Assembly: GCA_902789245.1 (NCBI GenBank)
Contig: CADAND010000015.1
Span: 1-46,771, forward strand
Length of the DNA stretch: 46,771 bases
DNA from: an uncultured Bacteroidia bacterium
GTDB lineage: Bacteria > Bacteroidota > Bacteroidia > Bacteroidales > UBA932
Reading direction: 5' to 3'
The notes under the pieces were generated by a model. It was not told the DNA's origin and searched no databases. It saw nothing but the letters and a program-made list of their open reading frames with translations. Of the stretch, positions 11,990-20,813 are shown one piece after another (position 1 is the stretch's first letter; each line of letters begins with the position of its first letter). The translations under genes were made by a program, and so were the position numbers.

Positions 11990-13147
11990 CTATCTAACTT
12001 TGAGTAATGCCAATGTGCTGACTGCCAGGATGATTCCGATGATCCAGAAGCGCGTGACGATGCGCGGCTCCGGGATGCCCTTCTTCTGGTAGTGGTGGTG
12101 GAGCGGCGCCATCAGGAAGACGCGCCGGCCCTCGCCGTATTTCTTCTTCGTGTACTTGAAATACCCCCGCTGGATGATGACCGACAGGCTTTCCATCAGG
12201 AAGATGCCGCACAGGATGGGCAGCAGCAGCTCTTTGCGGATCAGCACGGCGCTCACGCCGATCACGCCCCCGATGGTCAGGCTCCCCGTGTCGCCCATGA
12301 AGACCTGGGCGGGGAAGGTGTTGTACCATAGGAAGCCCAGCAGCGCGCCCACGAAGGCGGCCATGTAGATGGCCACTTCGCCGGAGCCGGGGATGTGCAT
12401 GATGCCCAGGTAGTGCGCATTGAGCGCGTCGCCGCTCAGCCAGGCGATGATGCCGAGGGCCACGCCCACGATGGCGGAAGTGCCCGTGGCGAGACCGTCC
12501 ATGCCGTCGGTGAGGTTGGTGCCGTTGGAGCAGCCCAGGACCACGAGGATGATCATGACCATGTAGATGCCCCAGGAGCAATAGACGCCCAGCTGCCCGC
12601 GGAAGGGGGAAAGCCAGGAGTAGTCGAACTCGTGCGCCTTCACGAAGGGGATCGTGGTCACGAGCTGGTCGGTGGGGATTTTCGGGCTCACGCAGACGGT
12701 CAGGGCCACGAACAGGCCCAGGCCGAACTGGAGGATGAGCTTGCCCCGCTCGCTCATGCCTTCCTTGTTGTGCTTGAACACCTTGATGTAGTCGTCGGCG
12801 AAGCCGATGGCGCCGCACCAGAGCGTGGTGCCGATGAGCAGCAGGGTGTAGATGCTGTCGAGCCGGCAGACCAGCAGGGCGGAGCCCAGCAGCGCGGCGA
12901 TGATGATCAGGCCGCCCATCGTGGGCGTGCCCTTCTTCTGCATCTGTCCTTCCAGGCCGAGGTCGCGGATCTCTTCGCCGATCTGCGCACGCTGCAGCTT
13001 GCGGATGATGGCGCCACCGGCGAAGAAGGCGATCAGCATGCTGATCACGGCCGCGAGCATGGCGCGGAAGGAGAGGTAGTTGAACAAACCTGCGCCGGGG
13101 ATGTGCAGGCCGAGGTTTTGCAGCCATTCTACAAAGTGGTTCAGCAT
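11990..13147 (-). CDS. mraY: Phospho-N-acetylmuramoyl-pentapeptide transferase MraY
   Basis: Integral membrane enzyme transferring phospho-MurNAc-pentapeptide to undecaprenyl phosphate to make lipid I. KKGTPTMGG (71-79), the FADDY pair Asp118-Asp119, and NLTDGMDGLA (211-220) are the diagnostic catalytic/Mg-binding motifs. A PLHHHYQKKG segment near the C-terminus is the conserved histidine-rich loop. The 385-residue length is typical. It overlaps murE by 7 bp. Confidence 0.96.
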   Translation of the reverse strand: MLNHFVEWLQNLGLHIPGAGLFNYLSFRAMLAAVISMLIAFFAGGAIIRKLQRAQIGEEIRDLGLEGQMQKKGTPTMGGLIIIAALLGSALLVCRLDSIYTLLLIGTTLWCGAIGFADDYIKVFKHNKEGMSERGKLILQFGLGLFVALTVCVSPKIPTDQLVTTIPFVKAHEFDYSWLSPFRGQLGVYCSWGIYMVMIILVVLGCSNGTNLTDGMDGLATGTSAIVGVALGIIAWLSGDALNAHYLGIMHIPGSGEVAIYMAAFVGALLGFLWYNTFPAQVFMGDTGSLTIGGVIGVSAVLIRKELLLPILCGIFLMESLSVIIQRGYFKYTKKKYGEGRRVFLMAPLHHHYQKKGIPEPRIVTRFWIIGIILAVSTLALLKVR

Positions 13148-14712
13148 GACTCGAGGGTTTTGAAGGTTTCCAGTACAATTTCACGTTCGTCGAAGTGGCG
13201 CTTCTCCGTGCCGATGATCTGGTAGGTCTCATGGCCCTTGCCGGCCAGCAGGATGGTGGCGCCCTTCGGGGCGAGCAGCAGGGCGGTGCGGATGGCCTCG
13301 CGGCGGTCGGCGATGCAGACCGTCTTGGCGAGGGCGGCCGGGTCGAGCCCGCGCCTGATGTCTTCGATGATGTCCTCCGTGCGCTCGGTGCGGCTGTTGT
13401 CGGAGGTGATGACGATGCGGTCCGCGAGGCGGCCCGCCACGGCGCCCATCTCCGGGCGCTTGGTCTTGTCGCGGTCGCCGCCGCAGCCGAACACGCAGAC
13501 GAGCGTCCGGTCGGGGGCGACGTCGCGCAGGGTCTTCAGGACGTTCTCCAGGGCGTCCGGGGTGTGGGCGTAGTCGATCACCACGCTCAGGTCCTTCGGT
13601 CCGCGGAGCGTCTCCAGGCGGCCCGGAGCGGGCTCCAGGCGGGACAGGGCCACGAGCACCTCGTCCTGCGGGATGCCGAGCACGAGGGCGGTGGTGTAGA
13701 TGGCGAGGAGGTTGTAGGCGTTGTGCGCGCCGATCAGGCGCGTCCACACTTCGTTGCCGTCGATGCGCAGCAGCATCCCTTCGGGGCTCTGCTCGAGGAT
13801 GCGGGCGCAGTGGTCGGCGGCGCTCCGGCAGGAGTAGCCGACCACGTGGGCGCCGGTGTTCTGGACCATCACCTCGCCATGCTTGTCGTCCAGGTTGATG
13901 ATGGCCGTGGCTTTGGAGGAGAGGCCGTCGAAGAAGAGTTTCTTGCAGCGGAGGTACTCCGCGAAGGTGCCGTGGTAGTCGAGGTGGTCGTGGGTGAGGT
14001 TGGAGAAGATCGCTGCGCAGAACTCCAGACCGGCGATGCGCTGCTGCTCCACGCCGATCGAGCTCACCTCCATGAAGCAGTACTCGCAGCCGGCCTCGAC
14101 CATCTCGGCGAGCAGGGCGTTGAGCGTCACGGGGTCGGAGGTGGTGTTGGCGGTCTCGCTGCGGCGCGTGCCGACGTAGTTGGCGATGGTCGAGAGCAGG
14201 CCGCACTCGAAGCCGAGGTGGCGGAACATGTGGTAGAGGAGGGTGACGGTGGTCGTCTTGCCGTTCGTGCCTGTGATGCCCACGAGCTTGAGCTTGCCGC
14301 TCGGGTGGCCGTAGAACGCATCCGCGGCCATCGCGACGGCCCGGCGGCTGTCCTTGACTGTCACGACCGACAGCGAGCGTCCCGATGTGCCTGCGGCTTG
14401 CCTTCCATCCTCGCTTCCCTCTGTCGCGGGAACCGGATTCGGCGCCACGAATCCTGCTGCGGCTGAGGCTGCGCCGTCAGGCAACATCGGCGACGCTGAT
14501 TCGCTGTCGGTCTCGTACATAACGGCTGCGGCGCCATTCTCGATGGCTTTGCCGAGGTACGCGCGGCCGTCGTTCCCGCAGCCGTTGACTGCGATGAACA
14601 GGCTGCCGGGCTGCACGCGGCGGGAGTCGTTGGTCACGGACGTGATCTCCACATCCTCGCGGCCCTGGACGGCGAGCACGCCGCAGTTCTTTATGATATC
14701 GCTCAGTTTCAT
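13141..14712 (-). CDS. murE: UDP-MurNAc-tripeptide synthetase MurE with an in-frame repeat-derived insert
   Basis: Mur ligase adding the third stem residue. The P-loop is GTNGKTT (148-154). DNSR (438-441) stands where meso-diaminopimelate-adding enzymes have DNPR; the arginine is kept, so diaminopimelate is still the likely substrate, with the Pro-to-Ser change noted. At 523 residues it is longer than the usual size. The excess lies at about residues 70-112, an Ala/Pro/Gly/Ser-rich stretch just before VVTVKDSRRA, where I would expect only a short loop. Residues 83-104 are encoded by the core of a dispersed repeat that also occurs near 18.5 kb. The insert sits at the N-terminal/central domain boundary, away from the ATP site, so the enzyme is probably active. 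Confidence 0.93.
   Translation of the reverse strand: MKLSDIIKNCGVLAVQGREDVEITSVTNDSRRVQPGSLFIAVNGCGNDGRAYLGKAIENGAAAVMYETDSESASPMLPDGAASAAAGFVAPNPVPATEGSEDGRQAAGTSGRSLSVVTVKDSRRAVAMAADAFYGHPSGKLKLVGITGTNGKTTTVTLLYHMFRHLGFECGLLSTIANYVGTRRSETANTTSDPVTLNALLAEMVEAGCEYCFMEVSSIGVEQQRIAGLEFCAAIFSNLTHDHLDYHGTFAEYLRCKKLFFDGLSSKATAIINLDDKHGEVMVQNTGAHVVGYSCRSAADHCARILEQSPEGMLLRIDGNEVWTRLIGAHNAYNLLAIYTTALVLGIPQDEVLVALSRLEPAPGRLETLRGPKDLSVVIDYAHTPDALENVLKTLRDVAPDRTLVCVFGCGGDRDKTKRPEMGAVAGRLADRIVITSDNSRTERTEDIIEDIRRGLDPAALAKTVCIADRREAIRTALLLAPKGATILLAGKGHETYQIIGTEKRHFDEREIVLETFKTLESC
14388..14483. repeat. Structured dispersed repeat, copy A, inside murE
   Basis: The core 14402-14466 matches 18458-18520 (copy B) at 57 of 60 aligned bases, plus a 3-5 nt variable segment. 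It contains a hairpin GGATTCG-GCGCCA-CGAATCC and beside it TTCCC...GGGAA. Outer arms TGCCTGCGGC (14388-14397) and GCCGTCAGGCA (14473-14483) pair with one bulge. Between these arms the element is 96 nt, a multiple of three, so murE stays in frame. Exact ends are inferred. Confidence 0.75.
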
Positions 14713-16610
14713 CTTGATGCAGTGCTTCTTCTCAGTTCATCCCGGAAGCAGGGGTCTATGTTGTACAGTTCGTCCACCACGGTGCGGATGGCGGCGGCGG
14801 GGATGCCGCCTCCCTGGAACTGCTTGGAAGTCGGTTTGGAGTACACCATGCAGATCACGCTGTACTGGGGTTTGTCGGCGGGGAAGAAGCCGACGAAGGT
14901 GCCCTGGTACTTGCGGCGTCCCTGGGCGTCCTGGTACTGGCCGTTGGCGTAGGTGCCGAAGGACGTGCCGGTCTTGCCGGCCACGGCGCATCTGGCGCCT
15001 TTCAGCCGGCGGGCGGTGCCGTCCTCGGTCACGGCCTTGAGCGCGCGGGTGATGGTGTCGGCCACGGCCTTGGAGCAAATCGCGGCGTTCAGCACGCCGG
15101 GGCCGCGCCGCTCCGTGATGATGCCGTTCTCCTCGATGTCCTCGACCAGGTAGGGCTTCATCATGCGGCCCTTGTTGGCGATGGCGTTGTAGAAGGTCAG
15201 GATGTGCAGCGGCGTCTCCTCGGTGCTGTAGCCGAAGCCGATGGAGCCGAGGTCGGTGTCGGTCCAGTAGCGCGTGGACGGGTTGGGGATGGTCGGTGTC
15301 TGCAGGCCGTCCAGGTCGAAGGCGAAGGCCTCGCCGAGCTTGTAGTTATAGATGTTCTGCAGGAAGCGCTCGGTCTTGTCCAGGCCCTTGCCGCGCCCCT
15401 TGCTCTTGTCGATGCCGTAGTTCTTGACCGCCAGGGTCGCGAAGACGTAGTTGGAAGAGATCTTGAAGCCGTCCAGGATCGAGATGCGGTTGGTGCGGTG
15501 CTGGGCGGCGAATTCTGGGATATGATGGTCCTTGATGGTCGTCCCGGCCACGTTGCCGTTGGTGGCGGGGAGGGTCTCGTCGAGGCTCTTGATGAAGCCG
15601 TCGTTGAGCACGGACATCAGCGTGACGGTCTTGAAGACGGAGCCCGGCTCGGCCTTGCGGCCGATGGCGAGGTTCTGGATCTCCTCGAAGGGGCCGTTGC
15701 CGTCCTCGCGGACGAGGTTGACCATGGCGCGGATGGCGCCGGTGGAGACCTCCATCAGCACGAAGCAGGCGCCCTCGAGATCCTGTTCACCCGCGATCTG
15801 CTCGCGCAGCGCGCGGTCGGCGATGTCCTGGTAGTCGATGTTCAGCGTGATGCGCAGGTCCTTGCCGTCCACGGCCTTGACGTAGGCGCTGTCGCTGTTG
15901 CGCACGCGGCCGTAGTCGGTCACGCGCATCCACTCGCGGCCCTCCTGGCCGTGCAGGACGTAGTCGAATTTGCCTTCGAGGCCGATGTGGGTGTTGGTGA
16001 CCTCGGACTTGTTGTTGCGCACGAAGCCGATGGTGCGGCGGGCGAGTTTCCCGTAAGGGTACTGGCGGATGTGCTCCTGCTCCACGATCATGCCGCTGCG
16101 GTAGCGGCCGTCGCGGAAGAGCGGCAGGGCGATCACGCGGTTGTAGACGTTGCGGTCGACCGGGTGGCCGAGGCGCACGTATTTGCGGCCGTTCCGGCGG
16201 CCGTCGGTGATGAGCTTGTAGTACTGGTCGGCCGAGCGGTCGCCGAATTCGGCGGCGAGGCCCTCGGAGAGCTGCCGCGCCTTGTCCAGCCAGGCCTGCT
16301 CCTGCTTCGGCGTGTTGGTGTCCTTGAGCACGGTGCAGTCCATGTAGAACTGGTAGATCGGGCAGGAGATGGCGAGCAGGCGTCCCTGGGCGTCGAGGAT
16401 GTTCCCGCGGGCGGGCTCCACGATGCTGATGGTGTTGGACGGGGTGAGGGCGGCTTCGATCTTGGGCTCCGGCTTCCAGAAGAGCTGGATGCCGGCGATT
16501 TTCGCGATGAGGATCAGCGCGGCGATGAGCAGCGCCACGTAGAGCAGGTACAGGATCACGCCGATCCTGTCGCGCTTCTTGATCTTGGGGGCGGTGGCTT
16601 CCGTACTCAT
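14709..16610 (-). CDS. ftsI: Septal transpeptidase FtsI (class B penicillin-binding protein)
   Basis: Division-specific class B PBP cross-linking peptidoglycan in the periplasm. One membrane anchor (about 18-40) is followed by the PBP dimerisation domain (EPARGNILD) and the transpeptidase domain. The active-site serine is Ser324 in PGSVFK, the SxN triad is S385-S386-N387, and the KTG box is 546-548. The protein ends about 70 residues after a VCMVYSKP segment and shows no PASTA domain; some relatives carry one. The start overlaps the ftsL stop by 4 bp and the stop overlaps the murE start by 4 bp. Confidence 0.94.
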   Translation of the reverse strand: MSTEATAPKIKKRDRIGVILYLLYVALLIAALILIAKIAGIQLFWKPEPKIEAALTPSNTISIVEPARGNILDAQGRLLAISCPIYQFYMDCTVLKDTNTPKQEQAWLDKARQLSEGLAAEFGDRSADQYYKLITDGRRNGRKYVRLGHPVDRNVYNRVIALPLFRDGRYRSGMIVEQEHIRQYPYGKLARRTIGFVRNNKSEVTNTHIGLEGKFDYVLHGQEGREWMRVTDYGRVRNSDSAYVKAVDGKDLRITLNIDYQDIADRALREQIAGEQDLEGACFVLMEVSTGAIRAMVNLVREDGNGPFEEIQNLAIGRKAEPGSVFKTVTLMSVLNDGFIKSLDETLPATNGNVAGTTIKDHHIPEFAAQHRTNRISILDGFKISSNYVFATLAVKNYGIDKSKGRGKGLDKTERFLQNIYNYKLGEAFAFDLDGLQTPTIPNPSTRYWTDTDLGSIGFGYSTEETPLHILTFYNAIANKGRMMKPYLVEDIEENGIITERRGPGVLNAAICSKAVADTITRALKAVTEDGTARRLKGARCAVAGKTGTSFGTYANGQYQDAQGRRKYQGTFVGFFPADKPQYSVICMVYSKPTSKQFQGGGIPAAAIRTVVDELYNIDPCFRDELRRSTASR

Positions 16611-16954
16611 CGTTTCACGACCGTTGCAGGCTTTTCAGCCTCTTTGACATTCGAACCCAGCTGCCCGAGCATCTGCTCCACGCTCGAGCGCCGGCTCACG
16701 TTGACCAGCTCGAAGACCTTCTGCGAGTGCACGATCTCGAGCTCCTTGAGCACCGCCTTGTTCTTCTCGACCTTGCTCATCGTGGTCTCGATCATCAGGC
16801 TGAACCAGATCACGAGTCCGAAGAGCAGGAAGGTGTAGGCGATGTGGACGAAGTAGCGCCCGATGTTGAGGCGGAGCAGGAACTCTCCCTTCAGGATCGC
16901 CTGAATACTGTTCTTGAAGAACATGCCGATGTCTGCTATCTTCCAGGTCTTCAT
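16607..16954 (-). CDS. ftsL: FtsL-like cell division protein
   Basis: Small bitopic membrane protein of 115 residues. A cytoplasmic N-terminus of about 35 residues precedes one transmembrane segment (about 37-56, YTFLLFGLVIWFSLMIE). An extracytoplasmic heptad-like helix follows (KVEKNKAVLKELEIVHSQKV). This topology and the position between rsmH and ftsI match the Bacteroidetes FtsL-like family, which bridges FtsQ and FtsI/FtsW. Primary sequence similarity in FtsL is weak, so the name rests on context. ATGA overlaps join it to both neighbours. Confidence 0.85.
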   Translation of the reverse strand: MKTWKIADIGMFFKNSIQAILKGEFLLRLNIGRYFVHIAYTFLLFGLVIWFSLMIETTMSKVEKNKAVLKELEIVHSQKVFELVNVSRRSSVEQMLGQLGSNVKEAEKPATVVKR

Positions 16955-17853
16955 ACTTTTTCGGCGATTCTGAGTTTGGCGCTGCGCGCGCGGGTGTTGC
17001 TTGCGATCTCCGCCTCGTCGGGCAGGATCGGCTTGCGGTCGACGGCCTTCAGGGGCGCGCTGCTTCGCCCGAAGACGTCCTTTTCCTCCTCGCCCGCGAT
17101 GTTGCCGCTGCGGATGAAGTTCTTCACCATGCGGTCCTCGAGGGAGTGGTAGGTGATGACGGCCAGGCGGCCGCCTTTCTTGAGGGATGCGGCCGCGCCG
17201 GAGAGGAATTTCTCCAGCGCGCGCATCTCTTCGTTGACCTCGATGCGCAGGGCCTGATAGACCTTGGCGAGGTACTTATGTTCAGCGAATGAGGGCAGGG
17301 CCGCCGCGATGGCACGGTCGAGGTCGTCAGTGGTGAGGATCGGCGCGGCGCCGCGGGCGGTCACAACGAGTTGTGCCACCCGGCGGGCGTTGTCGAGCTC
17401 GCCGTACAGACGGAAGATCTTTTCCAATTCTTCTTGCGTATAAGAATTGACGATGTCAGAGGCGGTCTTACCGCCCTGCCTGTTCATCCGCATATCGAGC
17501 GGAGCGTTGAAGCGGAAGGAGAAACCCCTTTCCGCCGTGTCGAACTGGTGGGAACTCACGCCCAGGTCGGCGAGGATCCCGTCGAGCCCTCCTGCCGCGT
17601 GGAGGAGGGTGTAGTTATGGATAAACCGGAAATTGTTGTGTATAAGAATGAAGCGCGGGTCGTTCGGCGCCTGGGCCAGGGCGTCCTCGTCGCGGTCGAA
17701 TGCCATGAGGTGCCCCTGCGGGGAGAGGCGGGAGAGGATCTCGCGGCTGTGTCCGCCGCCGCCGAAGGTCGCGTCGGCATAGAAGCCGTCGGGGTTGAGG
17801 ACCAGCGCGTCGACGCTGGGATGCAGCAGGACGGGATTGTGGTACTCAGACAT
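16951..17853 (-). CDS. rsmH: 16S rRNA (cytosine(1402)-N4)-methyltransferase RsmH (MraW)
   Basis: SAM-dependent methyltransferase modifying C1402 of 16S rRNA in the decoding centre. DATFGGGGHS (27-36) is the SAM-binding loop; ADLGVSSHQ and the YHSLEDRMVK segment are family hallmarks. I chose the ATG at 17853 (MSEYHNPVLL), giving 300 residues. The frame stays open for 37 more codons upstream, but that part overlaps mraZ and does not resemble the family. The gene overlaps mraZ by 8 bp and ftsL by 4 bp. Confidence 0.95.
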   Translation of the reverse strand: MSEYHNPVLLHPSVDALVLNPDGFYADATFGGGGHSREILSRLSPQGHLMAFDRDEDALAQAPNDPRFILIHNNFRFIHNYTLLHAAGGLDGILADLGVSSHQFDTAERGFSFRFNAPLDMRMNRQGGKTASDIVNSYTQEELEKIFRLYGELDNARRVAQLVVTARGAAPILTTDDLDRAIAAALPSFAEHKYLAKVYQALRIEVNEEMRALEKFLSGAAASLKKGGRLAVITYHSLEDRMVKNFIRSGNIAGEEEKDVFGRSSAPLKAVDRKPILPDEAEIASNTRARSAKLRIAEKV

Positions 17854-18316
17854 TTGCGGGCCCCTTCGTTTTCGAGAGGCTTTCCGCGATGGCAATGAAA
17901 TCGCCGCTTGACAGTCTGGACGTCTCGTAACGCTCTTTGGCCCAGATCTCAATCTTGAAATCATTGCCGGAGAAGACCACCTCTTTGTTCACACCGATGG
18001 AATCAAGGAGTTTGCGGCTGATCGAGATGCGGCCGAACTTGGCGTCCGGCTCGACGATGTCACGGTCCCGCATATATTCTCTCCAGAACATTGCGTGTTG
18101 ACGGTTGAAGGTGAGGTCGAGACTGTCTTTGACCTTGCCGGACTGCCGCTCCCATTCTTCGAAGCAGTACATCTCGAGGCAAGGCTCGAAAAGATCTTTC
18201 TTGACGACGAACCTCATGTCGCTTCCCGGCGGCATCGCACCCTTGAGCGGCGCGGGAAGGACCAGCCTTCCTTTGTCGTCCACGCGGGATGTGTATTCGC
18301 CGATGAAAGTGACCAT
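17846..18316 (-). CDS. mraZ: Transcriptional regulator MraZ
   Basis: AbrB-fold DNA-binding protein that controls the dcw operon it heads in other bacteria. Two MraZ half-domains are visible, with the DxxxR signatures DDKGR (13-17) and DAKFGR (91-96). The ATG at 18316 (MVTFIGEYTS) gives 156 residues and fits family N-termini. A TTG three codons upstream (18325) is the alternative. The -7 box ends 27 bp before this ATG, so the leader is short and MraZ-type operator repeats would have to overlap the promoter. I did not recognise clear GTGGG-type boxes there. Confidence 0.94.
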   Translation of the reverse strand: MVTFIGEYTSRVDDKGRLVLPAPLKGAMPPGSDMRFVVKKDLFEPCLEMYCFEEWERQSGKVKDSLDLTFNRQHAMFWREYMRDRDIVEPDAKFGRISISRKLLDSIGVNKEVVFSGNDFKIEIWAKERYETSRLSSGDFIAIAESLSKTKGPANV

Positions 18317-18342
18317 TTCGTTCAATTCTTATACGCAATGGA

Positions 18343-18376
18343 CAAAGGTAGCAATTTTTTTCCATTTTCTTCCAAA
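18343..18376 (-). promoter_or_regulatory. Promoter of the dcw operon
   Basis: On the minus strand TACCTTTG (18343-18350) matches TAnnTTTG. TTTG (18373-18376) lies 22 nt upstream as a possible -33 element, slightly wider than the 19-20 nt seen at the tRNA promoters here. It is the only recognisable promoter upstream of the chain from mraZ to gltX. Confidence 0.65.
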
Positions 18377-18437
18377 CTCTTACATTTTTTTCCACTTTCC
18401 CGCCTTTTCCTTGCCTCGCAAGCCTTTGCTGCGGCGG

Positions 18438-18542
18438 CAGGGCGGCCCTGGCCTCGGCTTCCATCCTCGCTTCCCGCTCGCGGGAACCGGATCCGACGCC
18501 ACGGATCCTGCTGCGGCTGAGCTTTCGGCCCGGGCCGCCCTG
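18438..18542. repeat. Structured dispersed repeat, copy B, intergenic
   Basis: The core (18458-18520) is the second copy of the element found in murE. It holds a perfect hairpin GGATCCG-ACGCCA-CGGATCC, in which a T-A pair of copy A is replaced by C-G. Beside it is TTCCCG-CTCG-CGGGAA. It is bounded by a 16-bp inverted repeat with one mismatch (18438-18453 and 18527-18542) whose sequence differs from the bounding arms of copy A. Confidence 0.75.
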
Positions 18543-18750
18543 TCGCCTGGCTCCTCTCCCGTCCTGCCCCAACTGTGGGTGCCCCCAAGCACTGCCAGCG
18601 GCACCAAACGCCCCGGCCAGCACATTGATTACCCGCGGGAGCCGCCGGAAATCGTATATTCCGGCGGTGACCGCCCAAGCTCACCCCGAAAAACAGCTTT
18701 GAGAGTTTTTGTTGTGAGGAGGAAGTGGCTGCGTGCCAGGGTGTTAAAAC

Positions 18751-18896: not shown

Positions 18897-20813
18897 CTAT
18901 TCCTGGCGGAGCCAGACGGCCATGTCGCCGGCTCCGCGGTGATTCCAGGCGTAGTAGGGGATGAGCGTCAGGCCGCTGCGGCCGACGACAAGCTCGTCGA
19001 TCCCGTAGAGCTTGTCCGGCTCATGCCGGACGGTCAGCTCCGGATTCGCCTCCAGGACGACCTCGCGGACCTTGACGCCAGGGTTGTCCGGCCATTCGGC
19101 GCAATAGACGATCGGCCCGCGTTCGAAGGCCACGCGGCCGGCGTCATCCTGCACGCTGGGGTGCGCCCGGACGATGCGCGCGGGCATGTCCATCAGCAGC
19201 TCGACCTTATCCCCGGGCTTCCACGCCCGGGAAATGCAGAAGTAGCCGTCCAACAGCTCCGCATGCAACTCCTCGCCGTTGACGAGGACCTTGTAGCCCG
19301 GCTGCAGGCCGTCGGCGTAGCTGTACAGGTCGGAGGGAAGGACCTCGCCCCGGACCCAGCCCGGGATGCGCAGCTTGAGCGTGAAACCCTTGCGGGGCGC
19401 CTTGTCGACGGTGATGGCGACGTCGCCGTTCCAGGGATAGCCCGTCTCCGTGGTCAGGGCGACTTCGCCGCCCTTCAGGGTTTCGGACATCCGGCTGGAC
19501 AGGTAGAGATTGACATACAGGTCGTTGTCGCGGAAGGCGTAGGCGTAGCCGGCCACCGACGGGATGAAGCGGGCGATGTTGGACGGGCAGCAGGCGCAGC
19601 CGAACCAGGGCTGGCGCTGGTGGCGCCCGTCGGACTCCAGCGGGTTGGGATAGAAGAAGGACCCGCCGTCGAGCGACACGCCCGAGAGCACACCGTTGTA
19701 GAGGGTGCGCTCCAGCACGTCATAGTATTTGGAAGAGCCGTGCAGCAGGAAGAGCCGGTAGTTGGTGTAGACGTTGCCGATGGCGGCGCAAGTCTCACAG
19801 TAGGAGGTCAGGTTGGGCAGCTCGTAGGCGTCGCCGAAGGCTTCGCCCTCGCGCCGCGCTCCGACGCCGCCGGTGAGATAGATCTTCTTCCCGACCATGT
19901 TCTCCCAAATGCGGTCGATGACCTCGGTGTACTGCATTTCGCCCGTCAGGGCGGCCACGTCCGCGATGCCGGAGTACCAGTACTCGGCACGGACGGCATG
20001 GCCGACGGCCTCGTCCTGCTCCATCACCGGCACGTCTGACTGACGGTAGGCGTCCATGCCCTTCTCCCCGTGTCCGCGCATGTCGATGAAGAACTTCGCT
20101 TCGTCGAGGTACTTGCGGTCGCCGGTCACGGTGTAGAGCTTGGCGAGGGCCATCTCGGCGATCTGGTGGCCGGGCACGCGGACCTGCTGGTCCGGCCCGG
20201 GCCCGATCTCGTGGCACACGCAGTCGGCGAACTTGATGGCGATGTCCAGGAAATTGCGCTTCCCCGTGGCCCGGTAATGGGCCACGGCGCCTTCGATCAG
20301 GTGCCCGAGGTCATAGAGCTCGTGGCTGTCCTCGATCTGCACCCAGCGCTCCGCACCGGACCAGCGGTGCGGATGCTCGGGGTTGCGCGTCCGCGCGGTG
20401 TACAGGTAGCCGTCCGGCTCCTGGGCCGCTGCGACGATGACCAGGACGCTGTCGATGTAGGCCTCCAGCTTCGGATCCGGATAGGTCTGCAGGAGGTAAG
20501 AAGCGCCCTCGATGGTCTTATAGACGTCCGTGTCGTCGAAGGGAAGGCCGCCGACGCGGAAGCCGAGGTTCTCGTCGGCGTGCATCTGCTGCGCCGCTTC
20601 TTCGAAGTTGCGGTAGCGTCCGGTCTCCTCGCACTTCGAGAAGGCGAGGGGAATGGTGACTTCGCGGGAAGCCTGCAGCCGCTGGCCCCAGAACGGGTCC
20701 GTGACCTGCACGGCCGTGAAGGGGACGGGGCGGAAGGGATAGTCGTGCCCCTGCGGGGCGGAGCATGCGGCCAGCGCAAACGCCAGCAGCACGGCGAGGG
20801 CGGTCTTCTTCAT
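18897..20813 (-). CDS. GH127 beta-L-arabinofuranosidase-type lipoprotein
   Basis: Predicted exo-glycosidase removing beta-L-arabinofuranose, as found in hydroxyproline-linked arabinosides, arabinogalactan proteins or rhamnogalacturonan II. The signal peptide ends in a lipobox with acylated Cys17, so the enzyme is probably membrane-anchored. The family's unusual zinc/cysteine active site is recognisable: Glu324 in GEAF (acid/base), Glu340 and Cys342 in CETC, and the Cys408-Cys409 pair in GCACCPSN (nucleophile plus ligand). The Glu324-Glu340 spacing of 16 equals that in the characterised enzyme HypBA1 (Glu322/Glu338). At 638 residues it has the usual catalytic (alpha/alpha)6 barrel plus beta domains. 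It is the last gene of the glycosidase operon, 5 bp after the GH27 gene. The exact substrate linkage is inferred from family only. Confidence 0.88.
   Translation of the reverse strand: MKKTALAVLLAFALAACSAPQGHDYPFRPVPFTAVQVTDPFWGQRLQASREVTIPLAFSKCEETGRYRNFEEAAQQMHADENLGFRVGGLPFDDTDVYKTIEGASYLLQTYPDPKLEAYIDSVLVIVAAAQEPDGYLYTARTRNPEHPHRWSGAERWVQIEDSHELYDLGHLIEGAVAHYRATGKRNFLDIAIKFADCVCHEIGPGPDQQVRVPGHQIAEMALAKLYTVTGDRKYLDEAKFFIDMRGHGEKGMDAYRQSDVPVMEQDEAVGHAVRAEYWYSGIADVAALTGEMQYTEVIDRIWENMVGKKIYLTGGVGARREGEAFGDAYELPNLTSYCETCAAIGNVYTNYRLFLLHGSSKYYDVLERTLYNGVLSGVSLDGGSFFYPNPLESDGRHQRQPWFGCACCPSNIARFIPSVAGYAYAFRDNDLYVNLYLSSRMSETLKGGEVALTTETGYPWNGDVAITVDKAPRKGFTLKLRIPGWVRGEVLPSDLYSYADGLQPGYKVLVNGEELHAELLDGYFCISRAWKPGDKVELLMDMPARIVRAHPSVQDDAGRVAFERGPIVYCAEWPDNPGVKVREVVLEANPELTVRHEPDKLYGIDELVVGRSGLTLIPYYAWNHRGAGDMAVWLRQE

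Follow-up and report, generated by a model that had tools for sequence, protein, structure and literature searches.

Two described systems are among the closest to the repeat considered here. Rickettsia palindromic elements (RPEs), as set out in the accessible part of PMC2229807, are 105-146 bp long, form a long stem-loop and occur between genes as well as in frame within conserved proteins. Repetitive extragenic palindromes (REPs) of the GTAG and CGTC families are, in the portion of PMC3733652 available to us, dispersed palindromes of 20-40 bp, some of which also sit in frame in genes. We analysed a stretch of 46,771 nucleotides (the window) on contig CADAND010000015.1, from an uncultured Bacteroidia bacterium of the order Bacteroidales, in which a longer palindromic repeat occurs once in frame inside murE (copy A) and once upstream of mraZ (copy B). 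With a probability of about 0.6, we read it as a non-autonomous palindromic DNA element, RPE-like in behaviour, whose arms are extended, homogenised and flipped by template switching during replication.

The strong copies share a common cap, in which CTCAGCCGCAGC faces GCGAGGATGGA (with few variants) in a helix with G·A mismatches that is usually closed by two hairpins, and weak relatives keep close versions of both motifs with one hairpin or none. It is plausible that the element owes its identity to this cap, with none, one or two tip hairpins, set on a long stem of free sequence. Both window copies lie where a first-pass annotation of the stretch had placed them, with small corrections to their extents, and both carry the element on the window's minus strand, which is also the coding strand of murE (Table 1). 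The near-identity that the annotation reported between the two cores (14402-14466 and 18458-18520) stands, its figure of 57 in 60 becoming 59 of 63 aligned positions with one 2-nt gap. Of the three substitutions it counted, the paired T-A to C-G change in the first tip hairpin and the loop change are as described, and a fourth exists adjoining the gap. Each copy is bounded by an inverted repeat of its own, again with revised extents: in copy A the outer arms pair at 12 of 12 positions and seven further bases pair inside them (14382-14388 with 14484-14490), and in copy B the arms match over 21 nt at 90%. These paired arms reach beyond both model units. When the element strands were folded as single-stranded DNA, they gave z-scores of -7.57 and -4.13, and none of 200 shuffles folded as well.

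The element is dispersed. A search with the 95-nt core gave 10 matches in this genome (G000; G and L numbers are our own handles for genomes and loci), and a covariance model built from nine copies returned the same 10 as strong copies together with one further match at E 0.9, so that the structured dispersed repeat proposed from the two window copies is borne out and the refuting case of a genome with two copies alone does not arise. Among 400 genomes drawn from the larger genus, with only ten candidates per genome scored and 17 genomes rescored, 19 had a match at E <=0.01, comprising 16 strong cases (this genome included) and three weak ones (G304, G305 and G309). Of the 18 genomes whose MurE is >=86% identical to that of G000, 14 have strong copies; outside that group, G412 has one copy, near a contig end and almost identical to a copy in G393. 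With few candidates scored per genome, so that weak relatives could have escaped in either case, the family-level search matched this genome alone among 149 and the order-level search, run with a second model, matched it alone among 295. A pattern scan of GTDB representative genomes yielded 41 stretches, of which 40 carry a Bacteroidales or Bacteroidia title; where a title gives the sample, it is mostly a ruminant stomach or a deer. The other stretch is a 3-kb contig titled Clostridia (L044) whose copy and flanks match a G462 copy almost letter for letter, and for that reason we take it to be, probably, a misplaced or misbinned contig. One exact pattern run against IMG/VR gave 0 matches, and in the literature searched, with subscription papers mostly beyond reach, we recognised no publication describing the element. 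It belongs to one clade of a Bacteroidales genus, in which the relatives are mostly rumen assemblies. From 71 listed copies, 63 were analysed after removal of two partial tandem copies (G393:C6b and G000:C8a), the Clostridia-titled contig and five weak matches in G304, G305 and G309.

In-frame residence, noticed first in murE, extends to other genes: 32 of the 63 copies lie in frame in MurE (4), ABC-F (11), IspG (6), AtpG (5), MBOAT (4) and GSCFA (2). Coding status was decided for these six genes, whose G000 proteins are confirmed by Pfam, with orthologues matched by motif, position and flank; the other 31 copies fall outside the classification. The 32 coding copies comprise 13 in sense orientation, which use two frames, and 19 in antisense. 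The first-pass annotation had asked whether close relatives carry the murE segment without its hairpins, and the answer is divided: G448 has only one hairpin left of the two, and internally deleted remnants persist in G252 and G263, whereas G204 and G241 have the full segment. The open frames were considered as evidence of selection and dropped, several frames being open in most copies, at about the expectation for this G+C by a rough estimate.

The recurrence of the same six genes and positions across species could be taken to mean that old insertions were inherited vertically and are now selected as useful protein linkers. We regard this as very unlikely. Coding copies of one locus taken from different genomes lie at a mean core distance of 0.087 (93 pairs), hardly below the 0.103 found between copies at different loci of one genome (40 pairs), in a measure that counts gaps as differences, so that distances come out too large for the MurE copy of G448; the peptides encoded in the various orientations and frames are unrelated; and at the same linkers other repeats replace the element. 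Neither species nor locus groups the cores more than weakly. In other species, CGTC-type palindromes occupy the IspG linker of G462 and the MurE linker of G225 (by eye), and because other repeats share these places, the gene linkers appear to be permissive sites and not targets of this element alone.

Two further repeats were seen by eye in these linkers. The peptide repeat ILRSAQDD is found in the MurE linker of G175 and G444, with a variant in G255 (L170, L173, L174), and an in-frame repeat encoding FSDKFAEKPISAPPSTTPTHG is found in the AtpG linker of G263, with variants in G425, G241 and perhaps G321 (L208, L211, L215, L216); the latter linker is the one that holds the palindromic element in other species. 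G503 and G448 carry a longer in-frame repeat, encoding AGSGSA..PFTR.GS.VSEAKPDSGA, in ABC-F (L102) and AtpG (L207). The window itself holds a CGTC-type REP, CATTCCGGGCTTGACCCGGAAT, at 1755-1776 on the minus strand, which has 53 matches in G000 at <=3 mismatches (26 exact), two of them in frame in AtpG and GSCFA.

Beyond the cap, arm sequences differ among copies, yet the two arms of a copy match each other. Across 66 copies (the 63 and three weak matches), the mean score of a left arm against its own right arm was 24.4, as opposed to 6.4 against the right arms of other copies, and flanks taken 100 bases away scored 2.5 with a maximum of 10 (65 controls). The longest perfect inverted match in the 40-nt flanks reached 8 nt or more in 43 of 63 copies, compared with three of 61 controls. 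Own arms also outscored swapped arms between copies at the same locus, at MurE (19.8 vs 13.8), IspG (22.2 vs 12.3), AtpG (23.2 vs 7.8) and GSCFA (27.0 vs 20.5). By eye, some arms are common to subfamilies, namely five G368 copies, four G393 copies and a GCGGCGCCGGTGTT type in several genes, which suggests that arms can travel with the unit.

The MurE copy of G000 offers a view of how an arm may grow. Left of its inner arm stands a 15-nt extension, missing from G448 and G241, the first 11 nucleotides of which are the exact reverse complement of the copy's own right flank, and that flank is of equal length in G000 and G448. The extension was probably copied from the right flank as its reverse complement, an idea that the MurE copy of G204 fits only weakly. 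Alternatively, palindromes already in place (terminators or REPs) could be what the element inserts into, and the arms would be the target, as reported for Yersinia YPAL, whose targets span or adjoin dyad symmetry in the accessible part of PMC2229807. The CGTC-type palindromes in the MurE and IspG linkers of relatives lend this some weight, but we hold it to be unlikely: the outer arm of G000 MurE is extra, one-sided sequence, the opposite side being as long as in G448, and by eye the repeat-less IspG linkers of G241, G294 and G163 have no long palindrome and the arms are unlike the REPs found at those sites.

Differing arms around each copy had been put forward in the first-pass annotation as a sign of selection on structure. 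They do not imply it, since copying of a flank by template switching would yield paired, covarying arms without selection, and the G000 MurE extension, read as a reverse-complement copy of its flank, would pair in just this way. The same question bears on the covariation of the family. In an alignment of 83 matches (58 distinct rows, mostly from other genomes), 121 cells were changed on both sides of a pair, compared with 20.8 in shuffles, although this alignment was fitted to the structure, which favours covariation; sliding the pairing partners abolished the pairing. Taken with a core that diverges less than its flanks, these counts could point to a functional RNA or mRNA structure under selection. 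We nevertheless consider that explanation highly improbable. The coding copies are divided between sense and antisense and orthologues differ in orientation, the host genes are unrelated, G-T pairs make up a mere 6.7% of paired arm positions (63 copies), and Rfam, at gathering score over the 8 sources searched, gave no match relevant to the element, matching only two tRNAs of the window.

The orientation of the unit is itself variable. Orthologous copies stand in opposite orientations in ABC-F (three sense, eight antisense), IspG (three and three) and MBOAT (three and one). In ABC-F, 134 of 146 nt of G156 and G263 align in the orientation of the element, and the flanks beyond align only in that of the gene; the pairs G204/G448 and G400/G393 behave alike. 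Because element and flanks align in opposite orientations, the unit and its arms are inverted together relative to the gene. A tree of murE and ispG makes G204 (sense) and G448 (antisense) sisters with support 1.0, and places G156 (sense), G263 (antisense) and G163 in a clade of support 1.0, within which the pairing of G156 with G263 has support 0.2. Upstream of mraZ, copies occur in G000 and G393, in opposite orientations relative to the gene and with differing arms; for the other 16 clade members no copy was seen there by eye, in regions too divergent for an empty-site comparison.

Table 1. Features of the two window copies and their neighbouring genes
Feature	Position	Strand	Basis
Copy A, 95-nt model unit, in frame inside murE	14388..14482	-	covariance model E 4.5e-22
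Copy A, cap helix, conserved 5' motif CTCAGCCGCAGC	14456..14467	-	position counted from sequence
Copy A, cap helix, conserved 3' motif GCGAGGATGGA	14404..14414	-	position counted from sequence
Copy A, first tip hairpin GGATTCG/CGAATCC	14435..14454	-	
Copy A, second tip hairpin TTCCC...GGGAA	14415..14432	-	position counted from sequence
Copy A, inner 5' arm GCGTCGCCGATGTT, of a type common to copies in other genes	14483..14496	-	
Copy A, inner 3' arm CATCGGGACGC	14377..14387	-	
Copy A, outer 5' arm GACCGACAGCGA, part of the extension missing from G448 and G241 MurE	14501..14512	-	
Copy A, outer 3' arm TCGCTGTCGGTC, taken to be native to murE	14365..14376	-	
murE, host gene of copy A	13141..14712	-	G000 protein confirmed by Pfam
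Copy B model unit, between a GH127 gene (18897-20813) and mraZ, ~120 nt upstream of the assigned mraZ start	18444..18535	-	
Copy B, 3' arm, overlapping the model unit	18433..18453	-	
Copy B, 5' arm, overlapping the model unit	18527..18547	-	
mraZ, downstream of copy B	17846..18325	-	

These observations enabled us to propose a model for the history of a copy. In this model the element would spread as DNA, probably single-stranded, in either orientation, and would survive within genes where linkers are permissive and frames open, as RPEs do, presumably without a function at the protein level. Once inserted, its hairpin would provoke template switching during replication, through which flanking DNA may be copied as its reverse complement, lengthening the stem; the arms would be homogenised, giving rise to covariation, and the segment between them would sometimes be inverted. 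In the parts of the sources accessible to us, inverted repeats are reported to have their arms homogenised and their spacers inverted by template switching (PMC8604942), which is also reported to create and maintain hairpins (PMC8794818), and by analogy we infer that such switching acts here in the same way. The arms have thus probably been shaped by replication template switching rather than by selection on RNA. It is also conceivable, if distinctly unlikely, that the mobile element is defined by the cap alone, that insertion itself copies the target flank as a reverse complement, making both the long arms and an invertible coding segment, and that a cap-binding enzyme recognises the G·A-mismatched helix.

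A number of results weigh against the template-switching model. The own right arm is the strict best partner in just 34 of 66 copies, because some arms are common to subfamilies, and the advantage of own over swapped arms is small at ABC-F (21.8 vs 16.7) and MBOAT (19.0 vs 18.0). The analysis found no clean empty site with almost the same sequence as a filled one. Separate insertions could also account for the opposite orientations, most of all at IspG with its differing arms. The core is less divergent than the flanking gene DNA in 55 of 55 pairs at ABC-F, 12 of 15 at IspG, 9 of 10 at AtpG and 6 of 6 at both MurE and MBOAT, a conservation that inert sequence does not predict. At MBOAT (L144, L091, L094), some 200 bp of element and arms are near-identical in three species, with 3 and 2 differences from G000 in 200 bases, while the gene around them differs more. 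This near-identity and the core conservation may reflect recent spread, a DNA-level constraint on the cap or conversion at the locus, and do not separate the three.

The search for a mobilising enzyme weighs on the same side. Y1 transposase matches, most of them weak, occur in 20 of the 21 genomes examined (16 over cut-off), with or without the element. G000 has two, both under cut-off, neither of them adjoined by a copy; on contig C4, ~33 kb separate one of them from that contig's copy. Among 30 of 50 Y1 loci scanned, a single one, in G393, had a copy in reach, ~660 bp from a RAYT-like gene (RAYT, REP-associated tyrosine transposase). The linked RAYT-type transposase that the first-pass annotation suggested seeking was therefore absent from the G000 copies and, save for that one in G393, from the loci scanned, and no mobilising gene emerged. 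The RAYT-like Y1 open reading frame of G000 at L266 is 189 aa long, shorter than its relatives of roughly 300 aa.

The element offers a natural series: with a single palindrome recurring at shared sites across many related species, arm growth, homogenisation and inversion can be traced in coding DNA. It also counsels caution, in that covariation in a repeated hairpin need not signal selection on RNA, and it indicates that housekeeping enzymes such as MurE, IspG and the gamma subunit of ATP synthase carry exchangeable linkers of mobile origin.

Comparison with known systems places the element beside several of them. The likeness to RPEs suggested in the first-pass annotation holds for behaviour: both are palindromes of ~100-150 bp that lie between genes, as copy B does, and in frame. 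The accessible part of PMC2229807 gives RPEs terminal inverted repeats of 12 bp; here the outer arms vary, though some subfamilies share them, only the cap is conserved, and orthologous copies take opposite orientations, in a comparison based on published descriptions. Miniature inverted-repeat transposable elements are marked by conserved terminal inverted repeats and a target-site duplication; the termini of our element vary, and its sites offered no clean empty counterpart from which a duplication could be read. Like REPs, the element is dispersed and partly in frame, and CGTC-type REPs inhabit the same genome and some of the same linkers; a REP, however, is one short tagged hairpin, whereas here a two-hairpin cap stands on long free arms. 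By eye, the conserved unit has no GTAG tag, nor a CGTC tag on an 8-9 bp stem as described in the available part of PMC3733652. GTAG follows the 3' motif in the two G304 matches and the G309 match (L147, L148, L151), as TGTAGCC or CGTAGCC, which might link these weak relatives to GTAG-tagged REPs. Homogenised arms and inverted spacers are shared with the template-switched inverted repeats of yeast genes and RNA genes (PMC8604942 and PMC8794818, as far as accessible), but those are local inverted repeats and not a dispersed family with a conserved cap. In the available part of PMC6649704, mitochondrial coding sequences of Nematomorpha also tolerate long inverted repeats, for which template switching is one suggested cause. 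In those palindromes conserved protein is encoded by both arms; our insert, by contrast, is a repeated element that adds a linker. Because its termini vary, its conserved unit is without REP tags and its G000 copies lack a RAYT link, we do not file the element as a member of either RPEs or REPs, but in its behaviour it is like the Rickettsia elements and the REPs that reside within genes.

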